This document shows positions 17,014 to 58,311 of a stretch of 64,000 bases of DNA, one piece after another. Position numbers and translations under genes: made by a program. The notes beneath the pieces are model-generated. The model was not told where the DNA came from. It worked only from the letters and a program-made list of their open reading frames with translations, and ran no database searches. The DNA lies in the NCBI RefSeq assembly GCF_024494575.1, contig NZ_JANHDO010000001.1, positions 434,001-498,000 on the forward strand. Reading direction: 5' to 3'. The stretch's first letter is position 1, and every line of letters begins with the position of its first letter. Source of the DNA: Halorubrum salinum. Its GTDB lineage: Archaea > Halobacteriota > Halobacteria > Halobacteriales > Haloferacaceae.

Positions 17014-17087
17014 AGCCAGGGCAGGGAGTTGAACCCCGGAAGTCTCGATTACAAGTCGAGTGCATGAACCACCCATGCTCCCCTGGC
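17014..17087 (-). tRNA. tRNA-Thr (anticodon UGU)
   Basis: The minus strand folds into a full cloverleaf without intron. The acceptor stem GCCAGGG/CCCTGGC is perfect, the D stem is GCAT/ATGC, the anticodon stem CTCGA/TCGAG closes the loop CTTGTAA (anticodon TGT, reading ACA), the variable loop has five bases, and the T stem CGGGG/CCCTG holds the loop TTCAACT. The discriminator is T; CCA is not encoded. In my alignment positions 8, 14 and 21, which normally form the U8-A14-A21 triple, are G, G and C. A TATA-like element lies upstream near 17105. Confidence 0.93.
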
Positions 17088-56357: not shown

Positions 56358-56633
56358 TCAGTGCTCGATGTACTGCGTCTCCCACTCGATCCGGGCGTCG
56401 ATCTCGCGCTGCCCGCGTCGCGTCAGCGTGTAGTAGTTCGTCCGCCGGTCGCGCTGTCCCTTCTCCACCAGTCCCTTCTCGACGAGGGTGTCGAGGTTGG
56501 GATAGAGCCGGCCGTGGTGGATCTCCTTTTCGTAGTAGTCTTCGAGTTCGTCTTTGATCGCGAGTCCGTGCGGCTCATCGAGCCCGGCGATCACGTAGAG
56601 CAGGTCACGCTGAAAACCTGTGAGGTCGTACAT
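56358..56633 (-). CDS. PadR-family transcriptional regulator
   Basis: A 91-residue winged-helix protein, MYDLTGFQRDLLYVIAGLDEPHG, with recognition helix GRLYPNLDTLVEKGLVEKG and wing TNYYTLTRRGQREID, a good PadR match of normal size for the short archaeal type. The ligand and targets are unknown. A TTTATTTATTC on the minus strand near 56660-56670 is a TATA element about 30 bp upstream. The long AT-rich region before it contains a palindrome and hairpins described separately. Confidence 0.88.
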   Translation of the reverse strand: MYDLTGFQRDLLYVIAGLDEPHGLAIKDELEDYYEKEIHHGRLYPNLDTLVEKGLVEKGQRDRRTNYYTLTRRGQREIDARIEWETQYIEH

Positions 56634-56818
56634 ACAACTGCCTATACCTTCAGTTTGCGAATAAATAAATACATCGTTATAAATAGTCACTATCGCTGGT
56701 ATCGGCCCGCGCTACCCCGCGATTCCACCACCTACGATATATCAGAAAAGCAACTACCGTCTGCGGTTCGACGGTCGAACTCGCTGCGATCGTCGTTTAT
56801 GAGAACTGATATACTCGT

Positions 56819-56834
56819 GTGAGCGGCCGCTCAC
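56819..56834. promoter_or_regulatory. 16-bp perfect palindrome in the PadR-priS intergenic region
   Basis: GTGAGCGGCCGCTCAC is a perfect palindrome 8 bases after a TATA-like CTGATATAC on the plus strand. It lies 186 bases from the PadR start and 314 from priS. Such a symmetric site near a promoter suggests binding of a dimeric regulator, possibly the neighbouring PadR protein. Confidence 0.5.
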
Positions 56835-56837
56835 TCG

Positions 56838-56960
56838 GCGCTCTCGTTCGGTAACTCGTCGGCAGAAAGAGGCACTCCCGACGCGGAAAAAAGCCGCGTC
56901 GGGCGTGCCGTTGGTCCCCGCTGACGCTTCGGCCCTCCAGACGAAGCGTCACCCGACGGT
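56838..56960. ncRNA. Candidate structured RNA with two stable hairpins between divergent genes
   Basis: The 514-base stretch 56634-57147 has no credible ORF but holds two strong stems. The first has 10-bp arms (56877-56886 and 56894-56903) around a 7-base A-rich loop, and with one mismatch extends through GGCAC at 56871-56875 and GTGCC at 56905-56909. The second, TGACGCTTCG/CGAAGCGTCA, has 10-bp arms at 56922-56931 and 56942-56951. A minus-strand TATA (GGTTTATCAC, 56973-56982) predicts a start at about 56951, exactly the outer base of the second stem; a plus-strand start near 56838 is also possible. Neither flanking gene could use the stems as a terminator. Confidence 0.4.
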
Positions 56961-57147
56961 AACGGACACGGAGTGATAAACCTGACGAGCACGCGCTACC
57001 AGTGTCCGCTCGCTCACACGTTTGCGGAGCCGAACGTGTCGCGGTCACGAACACACGTATTCGGCCGTGTTCGGACGGACACGATCCGGCGGGCGGCCGC
57101 CACGAACGGTAACGTCTATACGTCGACCGCGGGTACAACGCGAGAGC

Positions 57148-58311
57148 ATGGACGATCGGACGCGAGAGTATCTGGAGGGGCGGTTCGGCGACTACTATCG
57201 CCACGCCTCGCCCGCCCTTCCCCCGGACGCGAACCTCCGCGAGTGGGGGCACATCCCGTGGACTCCGGGGTCGGGCACGACGATGGTGCGCCATCAGTCG
57301 CTCTTCGACCTCGGTGACGTCGACACCTTCTTCGCGGACAACGCTCCGCGGCACGCGTACTTCTCGGCCGCCCGCTACGACGACCCGGGCGCGTCGACGA
57401 TGTCGAAGAAAGGGTGGCGGTCGGCCGACCTGATCTTTGATCTCGACGCCGACCACCTCCCCGGCGTCGACCCGGAGACGACGAGCTATCCCGAGATGCT
57501 GGCGGCCTGTAAGGACGCCCTCTGGCGGCTGCTCGACTTTCTCGAAGACGATTTCTCCTTCGACGACCTCACGATCGTCTTCTCCGGCGGTCGGGGGTAC
57601 CACGTCCACGTCCGCGACGACGGCGTCCGCGATCTGGACAGCGAGGCGCGACGCGAGATCGTCGATTACGTCCGCGCGATCGACCTCGACACGGAGGGGT
57701 TGATCCGAACGGTGTCGGACCGCGGCACGACGAAACGCGTCCTCCGCACCGAGGGGGGATGGGGCGCTCGCGTCCACGAGGCGCTCGTCGCGTACGCGGA
57801 CGACCTCCGCGAGATGGACGAGGCGGCCGCCCGCGAGCGGCTGATGGAACTCGACGGGATCGGCGAGGGGCGCGCGGAGACGATCCTCGGCGCGTTCGAG
57901 CGCAACCCGACCGCGGTCCGCGAGGGGAACGTGGAGGCCGGCGGCCCGGGTGTGCGCCGGCTCGTCTCCGCGCTCGCCGCGCGGGTGGCCGCGACCGACA
58001 CCGCCCCGATCGACGAGCCGGTCACCACGGACACCAGACGGCTAATTCGGCTTCCGCGAACGCTCCACGGCGGGTCCGGACTCGTCGTCACCCCGATCGA
58101 CCGCGCGGATCTCGACGACTTCGATCCGCTTCGGGACGCGGTTCCGGAGCGGTTCGTCGGCCGCGAGATCCGGATCGAGAGCGACGCGGATCGGACGGTA
58201 GAACTAAACGGCGAGAGAGTGTTAGTCGAATCCGGTAGTAACACCGTGCCCGAGTTCGCGGGGGTCTTCCTGATGGCCCGCGGCGAGGCGCGGAAAGCCT
58301 CCGAACGATGA
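57148..58311 (+). CDS. priS: DNA primase small (catalytic) subunit PriS
   Basis: A 387-residue archaeal/eukaryotic primase catalytic subunit that starts RNA (or DNA) primers for replication with PriL. The catalytic Asp motif is DLDAD at residues 98-102, and [10 protein letters not shown] near 148-157 is the nucleotide-binding loop. REWGHIPW near 31-38 is conserved. The ATG at 57148 has only a weak TATA (GTCTATACG, about 57113-57121). The stop overlaps the GINS gene start (ATGA at 58308), the pairing seen in other haloarchaea. Confidence 0.95.

Follow-up and report, generated by a model that had tools for sequence, protein, structure and literature searches.

Predicted small RNA gene in the padR-priS gap

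Between two genes of Halorubrum salinum that are transcribed away from each other lies a 514-bp gap with two strong hairpins (56634-57147 of the window, that is, of the whole 64,000-nt stretch of DNA analysed). A PadR-like gene on the minus strand starts at 56633, and priS, which encodes the small subunit of DNA primase, starts at 57148 on the plus strand. Since both genes start at the gap, the hairpins are not terminators of either, as an earlier note made from the sequence alone had argued. That note had named the gap as a candidate locus for a small RNA with a minus-strand promoter. Comparison of related genomes supports this proposal: promoter, hairpin loop and flanking single strand are kept over the class, and the stems carry compensatory changes. 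On this comparative evidence, the gap very probably contains a minus-strand small RNA gene that is one copy of a haloarchaea-wide RNA family.

Table 1. Features of the predicted RNA gene and its surroundings (window coordinates).
Feature	Position	Strand	Remarks
Small non-coding RNA gene	56865..56952	-	Predicted transcript of ~88 nt between predicted ends; TATA distance and core conserved, stems covarying
BRE-like CGTCAG	56982-56987	-	Just upstream of TATA-like box
TATA-like box TTTATC	56975..56980	-	NTTA box; equal distance in 128/130 distinct copies
5' hairpin (stem B)	56922..56951	-	Stem TGACGCTTCG/CGAAGCGTCA, loop TCTGGAGGGC; arms 56922-56931 and 56942-56951 (10 nt, 100% complementary), 10-nt loop; nearly invariant in 30 loci
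GGAGGGC of 5' hairpin loop	56932..56938	-	Invariant
Single-stranded GCGGGGACCAAC	56910..56921	-	Nearly invariant through GCGGGGACC
3' hairpin (stem A)	56871..56909	-	15/16 pairs, U-rich loop; arms 56871-56886 and 56894-56909 (16 nt, 94% complementary), 7-nt loop; variable but covarying
Pyrimidine tract TCTTTC after 3' hairpin	56865..56870	-	Possible termination signal; tract found 3' of the hairpin in 126/130 copies by a permissive pattern
PadR-like regulator gene	56361..56633	-	Pfam PF03551; conserved downstream neighbour, outside transcript

Recomputing coordinates and pairing recovered both hairpins as first described, a perfect 10-bp stem and one of about 15 pairs with a single mismatch, together with GGAGGGC in the loop of the former on the minus strand. 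The minus-strand TATA-like box predicts a start near 56952, ~26 nt past the box, and this is the base just outside stem B, so that the predicted 5' end falls at the outer edge of the stem as had been noticed. Stem A is probably the RNA's own 3' hairpin or terminator. Most likely, the 3' hairpin and the pyrimidine tract after it would together end the transcript, the hairpin stopping transcription and protecting the 3' end.

The fold of 56800-57000 was stronger than that of 200/200 dinucleotide shuffles on each strand (z -4.1 plus, -3.6 minus). Perfect 10-bp stems as such occur in the window about as often as expected (6 observed, 6.45 expected); two of them within one 514-bp gap are unusual (0.05 expected). 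Over 130 copies from related genomes, folding of the 3' region had a median z of -4.8, versus -0.03 in a control region located 90 nt downstream. A 16-bp palindrome listed along with the hairpins in the earlier note, GTGAGCGGCCGCTCAC, is indeed present at 56819-56834, downstream of the RNA. It is not part of it: 16-bp palindromes occur in the window at about chance frequency (8 observed, 5.95 expected), and this one was found in no other fetched locus (1/194, the window's own copy). The palindrome is thus a chance feature, separate from the RNA.

Conservation across the haloarchaea

A nucleotide search with the gap gave matches in 36 of 39 genomes and 14 of 17 genera. Beyond the genus the matching part was the transcript only, chiefly the 5' hairpin and the strand 3' of it. 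Alignment of 30 loci yielded 42 invariant columns, nearly all located in this 5' module or at the TATA box. In the near-invariant module, unpaired CAGCGGGGACC comes after the hairpin that bears the GGAGGG loop. When up to one mismatch was allowed, the core pattern GAAGCGTCNGCGGGGACC was present in 387 of the 391 class genomes and in 83 of the 86 genera, and its reversed control was rare. Most genomes outside the Haloferacaceae had one match and most of those inside had two. No match was present in the viral contigs, which were searched as a check for virus carriage.

The distance between the TATA-like box and the loop was also fixed (Table 1). The 130 copies scored for this and other features were taken from 194 loci by a pattern in which the core is obligatory; they are distinct by 120-nt sequence, some genomes having been fetched repeatedly. 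Because of the way they were collected, core invariance among the 130 is not independent evidence; the count over 391 genomes allowed one mismatch.

Searched with a covariance model built on the 5' module, 56 of 294 genomes of the phylum gave matches, 52 of them belonging to the same order. The four matches outside the order (E 0.0056-0.0075) were taken as noise. The genomes of the order without the core pattern (G030, G032, G298 and G389) gave weak model matches or none (best E 0.0097). Three of the four yielded PriS, and in a PriS tree with four outgroups these three formed a clade (100/98) standing beside the 17 other genomes of the order that it included (99/96). The RNA would thus either have arisen after that split or have been lost on that branch.

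Compensatory changes in the stems

The earlier note had called for a covariance analysis of the stems in related genomes, and the stems passed it, strongly in the case of the 3' stem. Among 14 Halorubrum-type sequences (set A4), 5 pairs of the 3' stem showed changes on both sides in 10 cells, and 0/500 shuffles reached that number of cells; slid versions of the same structure also contained two-sided changes, at most 2 pairs and 4 cells. For the 7 sequences from family f14 (A5) the count was 3 pairs and 4 cells (4/500 shuffles). A set of 13 sequences, 12 of them distinct, from family f12 and Halobacterium (A7) gave 4 pairs and 8 cells (0/500 shuffles). The sets were chosen by hand, A4 comprising 14 of 22 Halorubrum-type loci. 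Covariation was not counted from two alignments in which the 3' stem was badly aligned (A2 and A6), nor from a tally with the stem chosen for each sequence. The comparison showed a 3' hairpin whose shape, not its sequence, is conserved.

The 5' stem is nearly constant in sets A4, A5 and A7, hence the little covariation signal there. The informative copies came from genome G095, which has four, two of them extra and divergent with changed 5' stems. In one (L193), CGCUCUG/CAGAGCG replaces CGCUUCG/CGAAGCG, which corresponds to two exchanged pairs; in the other (L194), one base is missing from each arm. A set of 13 sequences (12 distinct) in which divergent copies were deliberately included (A10) contained 2 pairs of the 5' stem changed on both sides, a level reached by 11/500 shuffles. 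Covariation in the 5' stem provides support for the predicted pairing through this one divergent copy, L193.

Possible modes of action

We propose that the RNA is an independent transcript from the minus-strand promoter and acts in trans. The invariant GGAGGG loop and the single strand CAGCGGGGACC, presented by the stem, would form its working surface. Complementarity to rRNA was at chance level, the longest matches being 8-11 nt compared with a shuffle mean of 9.2 and maximum of 11 (five rRNA loci, without the 5' part of 16S). The 11-mer TTGGTCCCCGC, complementary to the RNA, occurred at 28 sites in ten genomes, and the 17 sites outside the RNA had no gene in common. Together, these two results make a single long antisense target unlikely. 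Since nearly every base of the 5' module is kept, stem bases that pairing alone would let vary included, and the search for a conserved long antisense target found none, the most likely partner is a protein or RNP. We therefore tentatively favour recognition of the 5' module by a conserved protein or ribonucleoprotein, and rank this above pairing through short seeds. A further reading, somewhat doubtful in our estimation, is that of a housekeeping-like RNA that arose in the ancestor of crown haloarchaea and has changed hardly at all since, which would form the core of an RNP, for example on the ribosome or RNA polymerase, and have no counterpart outside the class.

Short-seed pairing is nevertheless a serious possibility, if one that we consider less probable than a protein partner. 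The RNA would then be a base-pairing sRNA whose two unpaired G-rich stretches, the GGAGGG loop and GCGGGGACC, pair with C-rich sites in many mRNAs. Such invariant unpaired stretches look like a multi-target seed, and paralogues retain both of them while the remainder changes. However, the outside sites of TTGGTCCCCGC point to no common gene, rRNA offers only chance complementarity, and pairing would leave the invariant stem bases unexplained.

The motif CCUCC belongs to the 3' end of 16S rRNA and is complementary to GGAGG; of the five rRNA loci, L105 and L106 showed it. The loop might on this basis mimic a Shine-Dalgarno sequence, bind the 16S 3' end and shift initiation towards leaderless mRNAs. 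We regard this as improbable, since the pairing is 5 bp only, is not lengthened by the invariant flanking loop bases, and is accompanied by no further rRNA complementarity above chance.

Genomic neighbours and additional copies

Of the 130 copies, 86 are followed by padR on their own strand, with the match start at a median of 418 nt (n = 87). An attenuator or riboswitch in the 5' leader of padR would account for this arrangement. However, in 28 of the 86 padR-linked copies the RNA and padR are separated by an Amphi-Trp gene of opposite orientation, and this frequent interruption argues against a leader. Moreover, a DUF5813 gene adjoins 18 copies in place of padR, genes for dCTP deaminase and a CBS protein adjoin 2 more, and the window's padR has an AT-rich promoter-like stretch of its own just upstream. 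A padR leader is thus very unlikely. In one copy padR lies upstream; in 43 of the 130 none was found within 2.5 kb, in flanks that often covered only 1.5 kb. Flanks of the same kind, again often of 1.5 kb only, contained none of padR, DUF5813 or dCTP deaminase/CBS genes in 23 copies. Relatives of the PadR neighbour, at 53-60% identity, are encoded by three viral contigs (L220-L222).

Copies per genome reach four, and Haloferacaceae carry extra ones away from padR. One of the two copies beside dCTP deaminase and CBS genes belongs to the window's own genome as its second copy (G000 C2 37487-37546). Others are found on a Haloarcula plasmid and on pHLAC01 of Halorubrum lacusprofundi, the latter (L224) being similar to the divergent L193 and L194. 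A degenerate second copy in genome G066 (L159, C1 611429-611485; E 8e-9) has an altered single-stranded motif and is perhaps decaying. Like many metagenome assemblies, the window's own genome gave no 16S or 23S rRNA match, despite a listed completeness of 99.86%.

The remaining alternative is a protein product. The earlier note had reported no ORF in the gap; open frames do span it, and none of them is conserved. A leaderless micro-protein starting from a GTG or ATG, present at the RNA 5' end in 110 of 129 copies, would suit haloarchaea, whose mRNAs are mostly leaderless (PMC4983044), but hardly merits belief: the frame differs between forms with 10- and 11-nt loops while the bases are unchanged, the stem accounts for the T and G of the start triplet, and would-be third codon positions are invariant. 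The 5' hairpin loop measures 10, 11 and 12 nt in 72, 56 and 1 of 129 copies respectively, which shifts any frame while the bases stay and shows that the RNA is not coding.

Relation to known RNAs

Searches with Rfam 15 at the gathering score detected nothing in the gap, and in the whole window only a tRNA at 17014-17087. At a permissive threshold, the best match in the gap was CrfA (21 bits versus 38 needed). A search of 5.39 million papers by sequence gave no occurrence of the family core.

Several known classes resemble the RNA in part. Qrr and LhrC are bacterial multi-copy sRNAs with a fixed seed; they share with it several loci, an invariant core, own promoters and a terminator-like 3' hairpin. 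The haloarchaeal RNA differs in its archaeal promoter and in an invariance that takes in stem bases and extends over the whole class. RNAs of the CsrB/RsmZ type carry GGA both in the loop of a hairpin and in a single-stranded part, and GGA likewise occurs in the loop UUGGAGGGC and in the strand GGGGACC of the window RNA, which, unlike them, has few such motifs. Their partner CsrA is absent from H. volcanii (PMC6104027). The sotRNAs sot0042 and sot2652 (RF02656, RF02657) are also structured small RNAs widespread in haloarchaea, but are processed from insertion-sequence transcripts (PMC8303175), whereas the window RNA has its own predicted promoter, no adjacent transposase gene in the window and no Rfam match. 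By inspection, no RUGAUGA was visible in the conserved core, and no Rfam family of C/D or H/ACA guides matched.

One member of the family appears to have been seen before, in Haloferax. The second Haloferax copy follows genes for CetZ1, a 2-oxoacid dehydrogenase E1, TrkA, an 80-aa Lrp-like protein and a DUF5813 protein (L151, L153). The CetZ1 piece at this locus matches PDB 4b46, and we take HVO_2204 to be CetZ1. By gene order, the E1 domain gene is HVO_2209, known as oadhA4 (PMC8305020), and the 80-aa Lrp-like gene is HVO_2212, described as a 78-aa protein (PMC12850539). The order HVO_2204-HVO_2213 being matched, the second Haloferax copy sits just after HVO_2213. It therefore corresponds, by gene order and not by sequence, to the H. 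volcanii sRNA hts10, which would be a paralogue at another site than the window's padR-linked copy. The source paper for hts10 is reportedly that of Heyer et al. 2012.

The RNA hts10 (HVO_2213s, H. volcanii chromosome 2078656-816 F, 161 nt; Jaschinski et al. 2014, PMC3956466) was found by prediction and sequencing and is conserved in 18 other haloarchaeal genomes (PMC3956466). Its deletion had mild effects, namely an elongated lag on acetate and small changes in yield; the value at 1.2 M NaCl is footnoted for irregular wild-type growth (PMC3956466). The available parts of that account name neither a family nor a function, and describe no structure or second copy. Since paralogues exist, this single deletion could not show the role of the RNA; the extra copies of Haloferacaceae would add dosage and mask single deletions.

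The earlier suggestion of an undescribed RNA therefore holds in part. Through the gene-order link to hts10, the RNA is already on record in one species, as an anonymous transcript; the family, its structure, the padR-linked main copy and the class-wide invariance are not described in the literature searched. Of 27 H. volcanii sRNA genes tested, 22 were confined to that species, and poor conservation is reported for most sRNAs of haloarchaea (PMC3956466). An RNA that is nearly class-wide, whose near-invariant module measures ~40 nt and which reaches four copies in a genome, likely does something basic. Conserved intergenic sRNAs of Halobacteria without assigned function have also been reported from halite metatranscriptomes (PMC7002113).

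Other reported sRNAs were compared with the family. HVO_2908s and H3.2 are common to Haloferax and Halobacterium vesicles (PMC10927574). The padR-linked copy of H. volcanii is expected near fen1 (HVO_2873), at ~2716 kb, a position that HVO_2908s does not seem to fit; H3.2 was not linked to the family. We rejected H225.2R (HVO_1727s2), which sits between HVO_1726 and the 16S gene HVO_1728: HVO_1726 is neighboured by an orc1 gene and a gene for a TATA-binding protein, surroundings that occur at neither Haloferax copy. Because H225.2R (H. volcanii 1598008-1598103) adjoins HVO_1728, the conservation and deletion phenotype of this sRNA might reflect the rRNA leader or promoter and not an sRNA of its own.
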